Below, in pieces: positions 180 to 8,915 of a DNA stretch of 11,899 bases. The notes beneath the pieces were generated by a model, which saw only the letters and a list, made by a program, of their open reading frames with translations, was not told where the DNA came from and searched no databases. Position 1 is the first letter of the stretch, and the number at the start of each line of letters is the position of its first letter. This DNA comes from Actinomycetota bacterium (GTDB lineage Bacteria > Actinomycetota > Thermoleophilia > Solirubrobacterales > Solirubrobacteraceae), in NCBI GenBank assembly GCA_005883905.1, contig VAYD01000096.1, positions 1-11,899 of the forward strand. Reading direction: 5' to 3'. Position numbers and translations under genes: made by a program.

Positions 180-276
180 GCCCCGGCGAAGGCGCGGTCG
201 TCCATGCGCGAGATGGTGAGCGCGACGCCGATGCCGCCGGCGAACAGCACGGCCGACGACACGATGAAGTACCAGT
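176..276 (-). pseudogene. Frameshifted 3' end of the adjacent membrane-protein gene
   Basis: In the frame offset from the main membrane-protein ORF, the DNA reads NWYFIVSSAVLFAGGIGVAL and then TISRMDDRAFAGA before a TGA at 178-176. This is one hydrophobic helix with a short basic and polar tail. It begins with NWY, the same residues on which the upstream frame stops. Removing one copy of the 11-bp repeat at 268-289 joins the two frames into one 224-residue protein that ends in a GTGA overlap with the glycosyltransferase gene. I read this as the displaced last transmembrane segment of the gene at 277-861. An assembly or sequencing artefact could produce the same picture. Confidence 0.7.
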
Positions 277-289
277 TCAGTACCAGTTC
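268..289. repeat. 11-bp perfect tandem duplication (frameshifting)
   Basis: Two adjacent identical copies of AGTACCAGTTC occupy 268-278 and 279-289. On the coding (minus) strand the unit is GAACTGGTACT, encoding the N-W-Y region. As 11 is not a multiple of three, the second copy shifts the frame and brings a TGA into frame at 279-277. Slipped-strand replication would produce this, as would a wrong read overlap in an assembly. Confidence 0.9.
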
Positions 290-2405: not shown

Positions 2406-3380
2406 TCAGGAGTCCCTGGGCTCCTTCGGGTCGCGCCCGCCGCTCGGCTCGCCGGGGTTGCGGCCCGGGGCCTTGCGCACGACCTTCTCGCAGGACCCAT
2501 TCGGGTTGCCGTCGGTCGCGTCGGTGATCACGTCGACCGTGTCGAGCAGCGCGACGTCGTAGCCGTCGCCGCACGTGATGTGGTCGACCTCGCCGTCGCG
2601 CGTGTGGAACCGGTCGTTGCCGGGGCCGCCGTCGAGCGTGTCGCCGGTCGTGTCGACCGCGCCGTTGGGGCCGGGGTGGACGTCCTTGGGCGAGAGTGCC
2701 CACAGGTCGTCGTCGCCCTCGCCGCCGCTGGTCGTGTCGACGCCCTCGTTGGCGAAGATGCGGTCGTTGCCGGGGCCGCCGCTCTGGTTGTCGTCACCGG
2801 CGCCGCCGAACATCAGGTCGCGTCCGCCGTTGCCGACCGAGGTGTCGTTGCCGCTGCCGCCGTGGATGATGTCGCGGCCGTCGCCGCCCTGCAGGTTGTC
2901 GTCGCCCGCGCCGCCGAAGATGCGGTCGCGGCTGACGAGGTCGCCCGCGTTGGGCACGTCGCCCTGGATCGTGTCGTTCCCGAGCCCGCCGACGAGCAGG
3001 TCGCCGCCCTGGTGGCCGAGGATCGTGTCGTCGCCGCGCCCGCCCCAGATGCGGTCGTTGCCCATCTGGCCGTCGAGCGTGTCGTTGTCCTGATTGCCGT
3101 GGATGCGGTCGTTGCCGTCGCCGCCGTAGATCGTGTCGGCGCCGGCGTTGCCGAAGCCGCGATCGTCGCCCTGGCCGAGGTCGATCTGGTCGTCCCCGCC
3201 GCGGCCGATGACGCGGTCGTTGCCTCCCTTGGCGTCCATCGTGTCCGCGAAGCGCGTGCCGCGCAGGACCTCGCTTGCGTCCGTGCCGATGAACGTGCCG
3301 GCCATCGCGACCGCTGCTGTCACCAGCAGCATCGCCATCGCCGCCAGCGCAACGAGGGCGCGGGTCTTACGTGCCTTCAT
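2406..3380 (-). CDS. Secreted RTX-repeat (haemolysin-type calcium-binding) protein
   Basis: This is a 324-residue protein. Residues 1-27 form a Sec-type signal peptide: basic MKARKTR, a hydrophobic core and an AMAG cleavage region. From about residue 36 to 220 there are roughly a dozen or more nonapeptide repeats of the GGxGxDxUx class (for example GGNDRVIG, GGDGNDRIHG, GGAGDDNLQG). In this family they fold as a parallel beta roll that binds calcium outside the cell. The last 100 residues lack repeats, contain two cysteines (HITCGDGYD and NGSCEKV, perhaps a disulfide), and end in a charged Pro/Gly-rich tail. No protease, lipase or adhesin domain is visible, so it may be purely structural or cell-surface. 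The signal peptide, and the absence of neighbouring ABC/HlyD genes, argue for Sec export rather than type I secretion. It is monocistronic between its own RBS and a strong terminator. Confidence 0.93.
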   Translation of the reverse strand: MKARKTRALVALAAMAMLLVTAAVAMAGTFIGTDASEVLRGTRFADTMDAKGGNDRVIGRGGDDQIDLGQGDDRGFGNAGADTIYGGDGNDRIHGNQDNDTLDGQMGNDRIWGGRGDDTILGHQGGDLLVGGLGNDTIQGDVPNAGDLVSRDRIFGGAGDDNLQGGDGRDIIHGGSGNDTSVGNGGRDLMFGGAGDDNQSGGPGNDRIFANEGVDTTSGGEGDDDLWALSPKDVHPGPNGAVDTTGDTLDGGPGNDRFHTRDGEVDHITCGDGYDVALLDTVDVITDATDGNPNGSCEKVVRKAPGRNPGEPSGGRDPKEPRDS

Positions 3381-3493: not shown

Positions 3494-3567
<74 letters not shown>

Positions 3568-4404: not shown

Positions 4405-4791
4405 ATGCCGTCGCCGATCACGGTGTTGGCAGTTGACGACCGGGCCGTCTTCCTGCGCGCGACCCGCGAGCTGATCGCGGCCGCGCCCGGCTTCCGTCAG
4501 GTCGGAGAGGCGGCGTCCGGTTCGGAGGCCCTCGAGCTCGCCGCGGATCTGCACCCGGACCTCGTGCTCCTCGACATGCGGATGCCGGGAATGGATGGCA
4601 TCGAAACTGCGCGCCGCCTGCTTGCATCGGATCCGCAGACGCTGGTCGTCCTCGTCTCGCTCGACGAGATCCCGCCGGCGCCGTTCGCCTCCCTGCGCAA
4701 GCAGGACCTGTCCACGCGCGCGCTACGACAGGTCTGGGACGCGCACGGTCGGCAGACGCCCGCGCACAACGGTGCCGGCGCCGAGCGATGA
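4405..4791 (+). CDS. Receiver-only (CheY-like) response regulator
   Basis: The protein has 128 residues from the ATG at 4405. The acidic pair is D11-D12 (VLAVDDRAV), the phospho-acceptor D57 is in LVLLDMRMPGMDG, and S85 and K99 occupy the conserved switch positions. After the receiver there is only a tail of about 25 residues (STRALRQVWDAHGRQ...), with no DNA-binding or enzymatic domain. It is probably a phosphate sink, phosphorelay intermediate or protein-protein switch. An in-frame GTG at 4336 would add 23 residues of low-complexity Arg/Ala and is rejected. The last 69 bp overlap the 3' end of the convergent histidine kinase gene. There is no Shine-Dalgarno; a 15-bp palindrome directly precedes the start codon, suggesting unusual control. 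Confidence 0.85.
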   Translation: MPSPITVLAVDDRAVFLRATRELIAAAPGFRQVGEAASGSEALELAADLHPDLVLLDMRMPGMDGIETARRLLASDPQTLVVLVSLDEIPPAPFASLRKQDLSTRALRQVWDAHGRQTPAHNGAGAER

Positions 4792-5676
4792 CCGCACCGC
4801 GAGGTGACCGCCGACCGCCGCCAGCCGATCGCGCATGTTCGTGATGCCCGCGCCCGCGCGGATCACCCCGCCGGGCGCGCCGGCGCCGTCGTCGTGGACG
4901 CTGAACAGCAGCTCACCGGCGACGCTCCCGTCGAGGCGGACGAGCGTGTGCCGTGTGTCGGCGGCGTGTTTGAGCACGTTCTGAAGCGCCTCGAGGACGC
5001 AGAAGTACACGGCGCTCTCGATCTCGGGCGGGTAGCGCTCGACGTCGCGCGCCTCGAGCTTGACGGGGATCGTCGACCGCGCCGTCGCCGCCTGGAGCGC
5101 GTCGCGCAGTCCGCGCTCGCCGAGCAGCGGCGGGTACACGCCGTGGGCCAGCGTCCTGAGCTCGTCGAGCGCGTCCTGGACCTCCTGTTCGAGCTCGCGC
5201 AGCCGCAGGGCGCCGCGCTGGGGATCGCGCAGCACGAGCTCCTCGGCCAGCTCGAGCTCGATCCGCAGCGCGACCAGGCGCTGCTGCGCGCCGTCATGCA
5301 GGTCGCGCTCGATGCGGCGGCGCTCGCGCTCGGCGCTGGTGGCGATCCGCGCGCGCGACCGGCGGACCTCGGCCAGCGAAGCCGCCGCCTCGGCCGCCAG
5401 CCGCTGGTTGTCGAGCACGACGCGCGCCATCGCCACGCCGGCCTGGACGAGCTCGGGCCGCGCGTCGAGCGCTGCGTCGTAGACGATCGCCGCGACGGTC
5501 CTGCCGCTGTCGTGCACCCTGCTGACCGAGCGCCCGTTGCCGGCCGGAGGCAGTGCCAGCGGCCGGCCGTGCGCGTCGACCCAGGCGCCGTCGAGCGGGA
5601 AGGCCACCTCCAGTGACGGATCGTCGAAGGCCTCGGCGAGCGCCCAGCGCAGGGTCGCGGCGTGCCCCGGAACCAT
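4723..5676 (-). CDS. NarL-type sensor histidine kinase (HisKA_3 + HATPase_c), no membrane sensor
   Basis: This is a 317-residue kinase. Residues 1-90 form a small domain with no transmembrane segment, possibly a degenerate GAF/PAS-like region. A coiled coil at about 88-120 leads into the HisKA_3 dimer domain with phospho-acceptor H127 in RDLHDGAQQRLVAL. The ATPase domain has the N box around N233 (EALQNVLKHA), the D box HDDGAG at 261-266 and the G box GAGITNMRDR at 275-284. It should autophosphorylate and pass phosphate to the convergent response regulators. An in-frame TAA upstream and an AAGG eight bases before the ATG support the start at 5676, 27 bp after the SHOCT gene. Relatives I recall often carry a longer membrane N-terminus, so this one is short. 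Its first 33 codons lie inside the 195-bp duplication. The 3' end overlaps the receiver-only gene by 69 bp. Confidence 0.93.
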   Translation of the reverse strand: MVPGHAATLRWALAEAFDDPSLEVAFPLDGAWVDAHGRPLALPPAGNGRSVSRVHDSGRTVAAIVYDAALDARPELVQAGVAMARVVLDNQRLAAEAAASLAEVRRSRARIATSAERERRRIERDLHDGAQQRLVALRIELELAEELVLRDPQRGALRLRELEQEVQDALDELRTLAHGVYPPLLGERGLRDALQAATARSTIPVKLEARDVERYPPEIESAVYFCVLEALQNVLKHAADTRHTLVRLDGSVAGELLFSVHDDGAGAPGGVIRAGAGITNMRDRLAAVGGHLAVRSSLGAGTVVRGRLPTVRVPDLS

Positions 5677-5771
5677 GGGGCGACCTTAGCCGCCCCATGA
5701 GCTCTACGCGAGCGCCTGCGCCTTGATGCGGTCGAACTCGCCCTGGTCGATCGTGCCCTTGTCGAGCAGAT
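5577..5771. repeat. 195-bp direct repeat, copy 1 (native-looking context)
   Basis: It spans the last 22 codons of the SHOCT protein gene, the 27-bp intergenic gap and the first 33 codons of the histidine kinase. It matches 6030-6224 at 194 of 195 bases; the single difference is C5693 versus T6146. Here both genes continue naturally beyond the repeat, so this looks like the original copy. Confidence 0.95.
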
Positions 5772-6129
5772 CCTTGGCCTTGGCGATCTGGTCGGCCGGG
5801 CCCTCGTTCGCCGCGACCTGGCGGACGTAGGTGTCGAACTGCTGCTGGTTGGCCTGCACCTGCGCCATCCGGCGCTCGCCCATGCCCTTGCCTTGTGACA
5901 CGAGGTAGATGAAGACGCCGAGGAACGGCATCACCACCACGAAGATCATCCACAGCGCCTTGCCCCATCCGCCGATGTCGTGGCGGCTGAAGAGGTCGGA
6001 GATGATGGTGATGAGGACCCAGAACCACGCGACCCAGGCGCCGTCGAGCGGGAAGGCCACCTCCAGTGACGGATCGTCGAAGGCCTCGGCGAGCGCCCAG
6101 CGCAGGGTCGCGGCGTGCCCCGGAACCAT
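5704..6129 (-). CDS. PLDc_N-SHOCT small membrane protein with kinase-derived N-terminus (chimera)
   Basis: The protein has 141 residues. Residues 1-33 are identical to the start of the histidine kinase. From residue 34 the sequence is a PLDc_N-type membrane module: a hydrophobic segment AWFWVLITIISDLF, then DIGGWGKALW and a second helix MIFVVVMPFLGVFIYLV. A Gln-rich helix of about 35 residues follows, and a C-terminal SHOCT domain (AKDLLDKGTIDQGEFDRIKAQAL). SHOCT is a short oligomerisation or targeting motif found at the ends of bacterial membrane and phage proteins. The native start and the first part of helix 1 seem lost: no in-frame ATG or GTG lies between the junction and the second helix, so translation must use the kinase start copied in the 195-bp repeat. 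The membrane core is intact, so it might still function. The chimera could also be an assembly error. Confidence 0.75.
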   Translation of the reverse strand: MVPGHAATLRWALAEAFDDPSLEVAFPLDGAWVAWFWVLITIISDLFSRHDIGGWGKALWMIFVVVMPFLGVFIYLVSQGKGMGERRMAQVQANQQQFDTYVRQVAANEGPADQIAKAKDLLDKGTIDQGEFDRIKAQALA

Positions 6130-6224
6130 GGGGCGACCTTAGCCGTCCCATGAGCTCTACGCGAGCGCCTGCGCCTTGATGCGGTCGAACTCGCCCTGGT
6201 CGATCGTGCCCTTGTCGAGCAGAT
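6030..6224. repeat. 195-bp direct repeat, copy 2 (at two chimeric junctions)
   Basis: This is the second copy of 5577-5771, offset by 453 bp. On the minus strand it enters the exporter gene at codon H556 (its SHOCT tail supplies the exporter's stop) and leaves in the PLDc_N-SHOCT gene (its kinase start supplies that gene's ATG). Both joins keep the reading frame. No inverted repeats, target-site duplications or transposase flank it. Confidence 0.95.
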
Positions 6225-7890
6225 GGGCGAAGATCGCGACCGCCCCGATCGCGCGCTTGAGCCCGTGCAGCTGCGCCTTGCCGTAGTCGCCGGCGATCGC
6301 CTCCGCCTGGTCCTGCGGGACCCCGGCGTCGGTCAGGGCGGCCTGCGCCTGGTCGACCGAGACGATCGGGATGCCCTTCGAGGCGAGCTGCTCGACCTGC
6401 TGGCGCGTTTCGGCCGGGACGGCCGGGTTCTGTTCGAGGCGCGTGATGAGGTTGCTGCTCAGCGAGGCGATGAGCACGGCGCCGATCAGCGCCGTGCCAA
6501 GCGAGGCCCCGAGGTTCTGGGCCGTCCCCTGCAACCCACCGGTCTCGTTGGTCTTGGAGGGGTCGACCGAGGACATGATCACGTTGCCCAGCTGCGACAG
6601 CATCAGGCCGGCGCCGATGCCGAAGACCGCGAGCGCGATCGCGAAGTCGGCCTCGTTGAGCTCGACGTTGATCGTGCCGACCAGCAGGATGCTCGCTGCG
6701 GCGAGCGCGAGCAGGCCCACCTGGACGACGCGCTTGGGCGCGAACCGCGCCGCGAGCCTCGGGCCCGCCATCGCGGCGATGAACATCGTCACGGACATCG
6801 GGAACAGTCGCTTCCCGGTGTCGAAGGCGTTGAGGCCGAGCACGACCTGCAGGTAGACGGGCAGCACGAAGAAGATCCCGAGAAGGATCAACTGCTGCAT
6901 CAGCAGCGTCGACATCCCGGCCTTGAGCTGTTCGATGCGCAGCAGCGCGCGGTCGAGGAGCACGTCGAGGCCACTGCGCTCGCGTCGCTCCTCCCAGGCG
7001 GCGAAGGCGGCAAGGAAGCCCAGTCCGGCCAGGATCACGAACGGGACGACCGAGAAGCCGAACGGCGTGATCTCCGTCCCGTTGATCGTCAGCGCGCCGC
7101 GTGGCTCGATCAGCCCCCACGAGCTGCTCTTGAGGACCCCGAACACGACGAGGCCCAGGCCGGTGGCGGACAGCGCGACGCCCATGAAGTCCAGCTTCGG
7201 GCGCGGGTCGGCGGCCGGGAACGGCTTGAGATGGCGTCGCATGAGCAGGATCACGGCGACGATCACGACCTCGCCGGCGAACACGTAGCGCCAGCTCAGC
7301 TCGGTCGTGACCCAGCCGCCGATCAGCGGCCCCGCCGCGATCGCGGCGCCTGCGATGCCGCCCACGATGCCGAACGCTGCCGCCCGCTGCTTGCCGGCAT
7401 AGGTCCCCGCGATGAGCGACACGATCGCCGGCATGACCATCGCTGCACCGAGGCCCTCCACGAACGACCATCCGAACAGCAGCACGCCCAGGCTCGGGCT
7501 GATCGCGGTCGTGAGCGAGCCCAGGCCGTAGACCGCGAGCCCGATCGCGAAGATGCGGTCGCGGCCGTAGATGTCGCCGAGCTTCGCGCCGGCGAGCATC
7601 AGCGCCGCCATCACCAGCGTGTAGGCCGTGATCGCGAGCTGGACGCCCTGGATCGTCGTGTGGAGGTCCTTGACGATCTGCGAGATCGACACGTTCATGA
7701 CGCTGCTGTCGAGCACCATCACGAACTGCGCGGCGGCGAGGATGACGATCGGCAGGCCGAGGCGCGTCGCGGGGCGCTCCTCCTGCGCGGGGGCTGCTAC
7801 CGCGGCGTCGATGACGGTGTCCTCAGGGCCGGCGCTGCGCCTGGGCGCGCAGCTCGGCGTCCGCGGCGACCGACTTCTCGATCTCGTCAT
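6157..7890 (-). CDS. DHA2-family (EmrB/QacA-type) MFS drug exporter with a SHOCT-derived C-terminus
   Basis: This is a 577-residue, proton-driven multidrug exporter of the 14-helix type. Helix 1 carries MVLDSSVMNVSI (the motif D1 region of DHA2 proteins). Motif A is present as GAKLGDIYGRDRIF near residues 98-111, and motif C (a Gly-rich helix, GIVGGIAGAAIAAGPLIGGW) near 160-180. A large loop with polar sequence lies before the last helix, as usual for the family. The last helix begins LKRAIGAVAIFA but is cut off and replaced by LLDKGTIDQGEFDRIKAQAL, the SHOCT tail copied with the 195-bp repeat. Helix 14 is therefore probably incomplete. The start is uncertain: ATG 7890 lies 68 bp inside the upstream PLDc_N gene with no Shine-Dalgarno, but there is no other ATG, GTG or TTG before helix 1. 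Substrate unknown. Confidence 0.9.
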   Translation of the reverse strand: MTRSRSRSPRTPSCAPRRSAGPEDTVIDAAVAAPAQEERPATRLGLPIVILAAAQFVMVLDSSVMNVSISQIVKDLHTTIQGVQLAITAYTLVMAALMLAGAKLGDIYGRDRIFAIGLAVYGLGSLTTAISPSLGVLLFGWSFVEGLGAAMVMPAIVSLIAGTYAGKQRAAAFGIVGGIAGAAIAAGPLIGGWVTTELSWRYVFAGEVVIVAVILLMRRHLKPFPAADPRPKLDFMGVALSATGLGLVVFGVLKSSSWGLIEPRGALTINGTEITPFGFSVVPFVILAGLGFLAAFAAWEERRERSGLDVLLDRALLRIEQLKAGMSTLLMQQLILLGIFFVLPVYLQVVLGLNAFDTGKRLFPMSVTMFIAAMAGPRLAARFAPKRVVQVGLLALAAASILLVGTINVELNEADFAIALAVFGIGAGLMLSQLGNVIMSSVDPSKTNETGGLQGTAQNLGASLGTALIGAVLIASLSSNLITRLEQNPAVPAETRQQVEQLASKGIPIVSVDQAQAALTDAGVPQDQAEAIAGDYGKAQLHGLKRAIGAVAIFAHLLDKGTIDQGEFDRIKAQALA

Positions 7891-8065
7891 CGGACGGCTT
7901 GCGCATCGCCCAGTACACGATCGAGCCGACGAGTGGCAGGATCACGACGATCAGGATCCACCCTGCGGTGAGCTTCGCGCCGAGGTGCCGGCGGACGATG
8001 TCCACGATCGTGAGCACCCACACGATGGCGACCACGAAGGCGATGAGGGTCCAGAGGAGGCCCAT
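7823..8065 (-). CDS. PLDc_N-domain small membrane protein
   Basis: This 80-residue protein has two hydrophobic helices, about residues 2-23 (LLWTLIAFVVAIVWVLTIVDIV) and 33-54 (AGWILIVVILPLVGSIVYWAM). They are separated by the short basic RRHLGAK turn typical of the phospholipase D nuclease N-terminal (PLDc_N) family. The charged tail (DDEIEKSVAADAELRAQAQ) is a short amphipathic helix. No phospholipase domain follows, so this is one of the many stand-alone PLDc_N proteins of unknown role. GAGGA about 10 bases upstream supports the ATG at 8065. The 3' end overlaps the exporter start by 68 bp, suggesting a minus-strand operon: PLDc_N, exporter, PLDc_N-SHOCT, kinase. It is divergent from the DUF6325-like gene. 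Confidence 0.85.
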   Translation of the reverse strand: MGLLWTLIAFVVAIVWVLTIVDIVRRHLGAKLTAGWILIVVILPLVGSIVYWAMRKPSDDEIEKSVAADAELRAQAQRRP

Positions 8066-8194
8066 GCCGCCATCGTCCTCGATCGCCGCGGTGCGGACAA
8101 TCGTGCACGCACCACCACCCGTTGACCGGCGAGCGCCATTGAGAGCGCCCCGCGGACCGGTGGATCCTCACTGTCAAGCGACAAAGGACGACTC
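8066..8194. other. Divergent intergenic region
   Basis: These 129 bp must hold promoters for the minus-strand PLDc_N/exporter operon and the plus-strand DUF6325/SHOCT operon. On the minus strand TTGACA is present at 8171-8176 (reverse of TGTCAA), and TTGACC is present on the plus strand at 8122-8127. Neither has a convincing -10 at 16-19 bp, so I do not call a promoter. Confidence 0.5.
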
Positions 8195-8635
8195 ATGACC
8201 GATTCGCAGCTCGAAGAGCTCGGCCCGATCGACTACATGGTCATCGAATGGCCGGGCCGCCAGCCGACCGGAGAGGCGGCTCCGCTGATCCTGGATCTCC
8301 ACGATCGCGGGATCATCCGGATCCTGGACGTCGCCTTCATGGTGAAGGACGAGGACGGCAACTCGGCGGGCGTCTCGCTCGAGGACTTCGGCGCCGCCGA
8401 GTTCGGCGACTTCGAGGGCGCGTCGTCCGGCCTGCTCGGCGACGAGGACCTCGAGGAGGCCGCCGCCGCGCTGGAGCCCGGCACGTCCGCCGCAGTGCTC
8501 CTGTGGGAGAACCGCTGGGCGGCGCCGGTCGCAACCGCGCTGCGGCGCTCCGGCGGGCAGCTCGTCGCCAGCGGCCGCATCCCCGTCCAGGCCATCCTCG
8601 CCTCGCTCGAGGCGAGCGAAGCGACCACTACGTAG
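8195..8635 (+). CDS. DUF6325-like protein
   Basis: This 146-residue acidic soluble protein starts at ATG 8195, with AAAGGA seven bases upstream. The beginning, LGPIDYMVIEWPG followed by HDRGIIRILDVAFMVKDEDG, and the later VLLWENRWAAPVATALRRSGGQL are hallmarks of the DUF6325/DUF1269-like family, which pairs two ferredoxin-like alpha/beta halves. A glycine- and acid-rich linker (about residues 70-90) lies between the halves. No catalytic residues or membrane segments are visible. In actinobacteria this family is, as I recall, very often followed by a SHOCT-domain gene, as here with a 13-bp gap, so the two products probably work together, perhaps in a membrane-associated or stress-related role. 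Biochemical function is unknown. Confidence 0.85.
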   Translation: MTDSQLEELGPIDYMVIEWPGRQPTGEAAPLILDLHDRGIIRILDVAFMVKDEDGNSAGVSLEDFGAAEFGDFEGASSGLLGDEDLEEAAAALEPGTSAAVLLWENRWAAPVATALRRSGGQLVASGRIPVQAILASLEASEATTT

Positions 8636-8648
8636 AGGAAGGAACACC

Positions 8649-8915
8649 ATGCCCGGATTGCTTCGCGGCGTCGCCCGCACCGCGGTGATCGCCGGAACCG
8701 CCACGTCTGTCAGCAACCGCGTCTCGCGCCGCCAGGCCGAGCGCTGGTCGCAGCAGGAGACCTCCCAGGAGCCGGTCTACCAAGAGCCGCCCCCGCCCCC
8801 CGCTCCGGCCGCCCCGGACCCGATCGAGCAGCTCACGAAGCTCGGCGAGCTGCACGCCCAGGGGATCCTCACGGACGAGGAGTTCGCGGTGCAGAAGGCC
8901 AAGCTGCTGGCGTAG
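8649..8915 (+). CDS. SHOCT-domain protein
   Basis: The protein has 88 residues, with AGGAAGGA just before the ATG at 8649. It has a short moderately hydrophobic, basic N-terminal segment (LLRGVARTAVIAGTATSVSNRVSRRQAERW), a Gln/Glu stretch, a proline-rich linker (PPPPPAPAAP, about residues 49-58) and a C-terminal SHOCT domain (PIEQLTKLGELHAQGILTDE followed by EFAVQKAKLL). The layout is typical of the partner encoded next to DUF6325 proteins. The SHOCT sequence differs clearly from the KGTIDQGEFDRIKAQALA version at 5704 and 6157, so it is not part of that duplication. Role unknown; an adaptor or oligomerisation role is an inference from the domain. Confidence 0.88.
   Translation: MPGLLRGVARTAVIAGTATSVSNRVSRRQAERWSQQETSQEPVYQEPPPPPAPAAPDPIEQLTKLGELHAQGILTDEEFAVQKAKLLA

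Follow-up and report, generated by a model that had tools for sequence, protein, structure and literature searches.

The window, that is, the whole stretch of DNA analyzed here (11,899 nucleotides), contains a 195-bp segment in two copies, the second of which lies displaced between an exporter gene and a small membrane-protein gene and turns both of them into in-frame chimeras. This duplication is probably a scaffolding or strain-mixture error. The ordinary gene is present in a near-identical strain, which makes an assembly mistake the most likely source of the fusion. The window constitutes an entire contig (C120) of a draft genome, G000, which comprises 3,305,056 bp in 556 contigs and is 64.75% complete. 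By inference, the draft was built from metagenomic short reads, the join arose in software and did not take place in the cell, and the fragment put in the wrong place was the one carrying the second copy. The coordinates of the relevant features are listed in Table 1.

Table 1. Elements of the duplicated region and associated features of the window
Feature	Position	Strand	Basis or remark
Intact histidine kinase (HisKA_3 + HATPase_c) from which the displaced N-terminus derives	4723..5676	-	
Copy 1, native place: SHOCT tail and stop, spacer, 33 kinase codons	5577..5771	-	Sequence comparison
Unique PLDc_N-SHOCT body separating both copies	5772..6029	-	Within a 111-residue stretch 100% identical to P0001
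Copy 2, displaced: between exporter and membrane-protein body	6030..6224	-	One difference from copy 1
Chimeric ORF, 141 aa (33 kinase residues + PLDc_N-SHOCT)	5704..6129	-	PF13396, PF09851
Chimeric MFS exporter ORF	6157..7890	-	PF07690; exporter sequence down to 6225, then copied tail
J1: exporter ...TTCGCCC joined to ATCTGCTC... of SHOCT tail	6224..6225	-	0-1 bp shared
J2: GCCTGGGTCG (Ala-Trp-Val plus one base)	6030..6039	-	Present in kinase
Exporter 3' block adjoining J1, divergent from sister exporter P0122	6226..6465	-	Sequence comparison
Second small duplication: 11-bp tandem, AGTACCAGTTC x2	268..289	.	Minus-strand gene interrupted by a stop and a frame shift

Structure of the duplicated segment

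Along the minus strand, the genes are arranged in the order of a small PLDc_N protein (7823-8065), the MFS exporter, the PLDc_N-SHOCT membrane protein, and the histidine kinase. The two copies form a direct repeat with a start-to-start distance of 453 bp and are identical at 194 of 195 positions, which rules out a chance repeat. Each unit is composed of the final 21 codons of the PLDc_N-SHOCT gene with their stop, a spacer, and the 33 codons with which the kinase gene begins; two further bases at one edge and a single one at the opposite edge complete it. The sole mismatch (5693 C in copy 1, 6146 T in copy 2) falls within the spacer, which is bounded by the SHOCT stop (5704-5706) and the kinase ATG (5674-5676). 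The earlier note had described two 195-bp copies that differ at a single non-coding base and are composed of a SHOCT tail and a kinase start, and this description is borne out in each respect. It had also proposed that copy 2 supplies a stop and a SHOCT tail to the exporter, and a start codon with 33 residues to the membrane protein; this holds as well, with the exporter receiving a partial SHOCT tail.

A scan for direct repeats was carried out in 61 contigs of the draft, the window among them (398 kb in all, of which about 20 kb lies in nine masked contigs). Apart from the 195-bp unit, no direct repeat of at least 100 bp with an identity of at least 92% was present in any single contig, and the next longest measured 37 bp. 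The possibility that duplications abound throughout the draft was rejected on this count, as a direct repeat of at least 100 bp occurs in only one of the 61 contigs. A structured RNA was also considered and dismissed: no Rfam match at the gathering threshold was found in 4700-8200, and the unit is made of plain gene ends.

The two junctions differ in the sequence shared between their sides, with microhomology of 0-1 bp at J1 and 5-10 bp at J2. The ordinary membrane protein encodes FAWVAW at the J2 site, so that 5-10 bp would be shared with GCCTGGGTCG, an overlap judged from the protein and not from the ordinary-gene DNA of this strain. Among six matched relative loci, all ten bases are present in L003, while GCC TGG GTG G is found in L006 and L008, GCG TGG GTG in L005, and TTC TGG ATC in L039 and L124. 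J2 could be either a microhomology jump in the cell or an overlap join made by software.

Chimeric genes and their reading frames

The exporter chimera comprises 577 aa from the first ATG, or 552 aa from the GTG at 7815, and contains an MFS_1 domain (PF07690, 160 bits); some of the exporter matches are named EmrB/QacA-type multidrug exporters by their sources. It ends with ...RAIGAVAIFA followed by HLLDKGTIDQGEFDRIKAQALA, in which H is the junction codon. Its last helix, which we take to be helix 14, is incomplete, being cut after IFA and carrying HLLDKG in place of LLSLWF, and the best 19-residue hydropathy of this helix falls from 1.59 in P0122 to 1.02. The SHOCT tail that it acquires scores 17.5 bits, short of the 27 bits that Pfam requires. 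The membrane-protein chimera starts with MVPGHAATLRWALAEAFDDPSLEVAFPLDGAWV from copy 2, its own first helix and start being replaced by the 33 kinase residues, and the best 19-residue hydropathy of helix 1 declines from 2.52 in P0001 to 1.66. Both of its domains remain recognizable (PLDc_N, PF13396, 29.6 bits with a cut-off of 23.3; SHOCT, PF09851, 27.7 bits with a cut-off of 27). Judged by hydropathy, a membrane helix is predicted to be weakened in both chimeras. A VPGHA-type kinase start is present in seven of the eight kinases compared (P0241-P0247; not P0249).

Both joins preserve the reading frame, which has a chance of one in nine. This figure, given in the earlier note, is correct for frame alone, but an open frame means little in this sequence. 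Another, non-coding minus-strand frame is stop-free for 843 codons through both junctions; at 71% GC open frames are cheap, and frame retention is therefore weak evidence.

These results bear directly on the suggestion of the earlier note that the duplication could represent selected domain shuffling. In the form considered here, the patch would have been kept since it restored the exporter stop and the membrane-protein start (with the kinase spacer), and the SHOCT tail would provide a feature common to the exporter and the membrane protein. The preservation of both frames agrees with it, and the spacer and ATG of the kinase itself, brought in by copy 2, could make the second ORF translatable. 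However, part of a helix is lost in both chimeras, the SHOCT piece of the exporter does not reach the Pfam threshold, and the frames would stay open cheaply at this GC content. In addition, the excerpts of the founding SHOCT paper (PMC3581485) state that initial experiments gave no support for a role in oligomerisation, so that, on those excerpts, no clear benefit is in sight. Selected shuffling is also left unsupported by the ordinary gene of the near-identical sister strain and by the motif searches described below, in which neither fusion was found in either listed set of 120 proteins, exporters or membrane proteins, and it appears very unlikely.

Ordinary arrangement in relatives

Among the listed matches, the public membrane protein nearest to that of the window is P0001, which shows 100% identity across the 111 residues that the two share and has the ordinary start VIVAADYPLLNIFWTILIVFA. 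An ordinary start with the protein's own helix is found in P0001 and in the other 12 membrane-protein relatives compared. The closest kinase match, P0241, is identical to the window kinase at 316 of 317 residues and differs at residue 269. The P0001 cluster has six members on seven contigs, the longest of 2881 bp, and the longest contig for P0241 is also 2881 bp; in this comparison, made through cluster representatives, the shared length very probably places the two genes side by side in one near-identical strain. Although the source field of P0241 is '-', as it is for the window's own proteins, we take it to be a sister sequence because its longest contig measures 2881 bp and not 11,899.

Public homologs of the two chimeras were also searched by motif. 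A SHOCT-like tail was detected in none of the 120 exporters listed out of 7797 matches; 118 of these contain LW[FL]TR and P0136 contains MWFTR, whereas P0170 is cut short. Close exporters continue past the J1 site as IFA-LLSLWFTR or similar. The kinase start was found in none of the 120 membrane proteins listed out of 374 matches, and no public protein spanning either join appeared in the listed portions of the two sets (120 of 374 and 120 of 7797). The window's own chimeras are not among the listed matches either, which makes the absence of fusions weaker evidence than it appears; the database may lack this genome.

A comparison with related genomes, which the earlier note had suggested in search of an exporter with a complete end followed by a PLDc_N-SHOCT gene with its own start, yielded such an arrangement in L039 (Solirubrobacter phytolaccae). 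The membrane protein there begins with its own helix, unlike that of the window, and the interval matching the patch is about 254 bp by hand count. In L030, the exporter is followed, as in the window, by the kinase and both response regulators, but no PLDc_N-SHOCT gene lies between exporter and kinase. In contrast to the window, the exporter in these two loci retains an LLSLW or LLALW end. From these comparisons of proteins and loci taken together, the form seen in the window appears to be derived and, as far as seen, private to this contig.

Comparison with the sister exporter P0122 further revealed that residues 33-424 are identical, that residue 425 differs, and that differences become numerous from 451 onward (552-aa numbering), which indicates strain variation just beside J1. 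The 3' part of the exporter (6226-6543) is a mosaic relative to P0122. A similar pattern was observed for P0247, a relative of the kinase, in which about 148 near-identical residues are followed by divergent sequence. Such mosaic patterns may result from strain recombination or from chimeric metagenome assemblies.

State of the draft assembly

Runs of N were surveyed in 60 of the other 555 contigs of the draft, of which nine were fully masked and 51 were readable (366,159 bp). The readable contigs contain 34 N runs, or about one per 11 kb; their lengths range from 1 to 100 bases, and 12 do not exceed 10 bases. In two relatives of like fragmentation, no N run was found in the readable contigs (17 of the 20 sampled in G064 and 18 of 20 in G065). 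We interpret the runs in this draft as scaffold gaps whose size was estimated, although a part of them could instead stand for bases that were ambiguous or withheld. The spread of their sizes suggests that there may be further joins at which the estimate was zero or less and no N was left. The window itself contains no N anywhere, and hence no gap separates the two copies.

At one of the 34 runs, a join in this draft has demonstrably produced a false duplication. At 1610-1743 of locus L187 (contig C520), an identical 35-bp sequence flanks a run of 64 N on either side, which represents overlapping contig ends left unmerged. The sequence shared by the flanks is at most 11 bp at the other 33 runs and at most 12 bp at 193 random positions.

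A second small duplication occurs in the window itself (Table 1). Within 268-289, a stop closes one minus-strand frame at ...AENWY, and its likely C-terminus, ...NWYFIVSSAVLFAGGIGVALTISRMDDRAFAGA, continues in another frame; this tandem is possibly a second join error. Adjacent exact tandem duplications with units of at least 9 bp numbered 27 in the 51 readable sampled contigs, in addition to that of the window. Among those counted, the only units that are not a multiple of three are a 10-bp unit in L134 and the 11-bp unit of the window, which makes the latter unusual but not alone. In addition, a near-exact 46-bp direct repeat was found in the control contig L221 of G065, a draft without N runs in the sample. 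Neither a second allele nor an ordinary copy of the region was found elsewhere in the draft, which is about 65% complete.

Origin of the duplication

An assembly error was one of the two readings offered by the earlier note, and it is the one that we favor as the probable explanation, with the short N runs, the duplication at 268-289, and the divergent block relative to P0122 as additional support. The ordinary locus would comprise exporter, PLDc_N-SHOCT membrane protein, and histidine kinase. The assembly probably broke between the last helix of the exporter and the first helix of the membrane protein, because the strains diverge there. A short fragment with the SHOCT tail and the kinase start, derived from an allele with one SNP, may then have been laid into the gap, joined bluntly at the exporter side and through the short shared GCCTGGGTCG at the other. 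Several observations argue against such an origin. The lack of any other direct repeat of at least 100 bp in the 61 contigs indicates that errors of this kind are not common in the draft, and one false duplication in 34 N runs is a low rate. The window has no N, and a repeat of 46 bp is present in the N-free control as well. Both frames are kept, and no second allele of the region was found elsewhere in the draft. Moreover, the 0-1 bp shared at J1 and the maximum of 10 bp at J2 are too short for an ordinary k-mer misjoin. An arm of a SNP bubble was considered as the source of the fragment and is unsupported: copy 2 extends 78 bases beyond the SNP in one direction and 116 in the opposite one, an asymmetric placement. 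As far as the excerpts of a study of vertebrate genomes describe them (PMC9516828), false (heterotype) duplications resemble the present case in having near-identical, slightly different copies close by on one scaffold, in drafts where allelic variants may lie in series. Those excerpts name, as marks of such duplications, a read depth reduced to half and gaps that separate the copies; the window differs in that its copies have no gap between them, and the hosts there are vertebrates.

The real readings, that is, those invoking a recent rearrangement in the cell, are together improbable, yet they deserve consideration. A strain-specific, two-jump templated insertion may tentatively be envisaged, which in one step took the place of the intergenic junction and gave rise to two chimeric membrane proteins, both translatable; its products, equally tentative, would be a SHOCT-tailed exporter and a SHOCT membrane protein started by kinase signals and 33 residues. 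In its neutral or harmful form, which is the more specific claim and is unlikely, a template switch would have taken place in this strain only. The strand would have left the last helix of the exporter during replication or repair and jumped forward to the SHOCT tail, 195 bp would have been copied into the kinase, and a return jump via the shared GCCTGGGTCG would have led into the membrane-protein gene, with the result that the exporter tail, the spacer, and the membrane-protein start were replaced by the copied patch. Both junctions are clean in sequence, the 5-10 bp at J2 are as expected of microhomology-directed switching, the copies differ by one diverged base, and no other such repeat is present in the 61 contigs. 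On the other hand, J1 is essentially without shared sequence, two junctions are required, the sister strain is ordinary, the draft has signs of gapped joins, and a second odd duplication is located on the same contig. Rearrangements by microhomology or template switching form a mechanism class exemplified in yeast (PMC11790251) and Escherichia coli (PMC3161906); in the portions of these reports drawn on here, they share with the window a templated patch from nearby and a short shared stretch at one junction, whereas the other junction of the window shares 0-1 bp and a cellular origin of its patch is hypothetical. A chimeric molecule arising by PCR or whole-genome amplification, which would have been sequenced at low depth and have entered the contig, is extremely unlikely. 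The fragmented and incomplete draft suggests low depth, and the short shared sequence at J2 agrees with such an origin, but two switches in one molecule would be needed together with the single-base difference.

If the duplication is the assembly error that we favor, it illustrates how a gapped draft can present in-frame chimeric genes that mimic domain shuffling, and that GC-rich genomes hide such errors by keeping frames open. If it is real, it would provide a compact natural case in which template switching yields two fusion proteins at once, and in which the retention of frame is testable for selection.

Other features of the window

Outside the duplicated region, a short ORF of 88 aa on the plus strand (8649-8915) has a SHOCT domain at its end (PF09851, 39.9 bits) and adjoins a DUF6325 gene on the same strand (8195-8635). 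The window also includes an RTX-type calcium-binding nonapeptide repeat protein at 2406-3380 (PF00353, seven stretches) and a tRNA-Asp (GTC) at 3494-3567.
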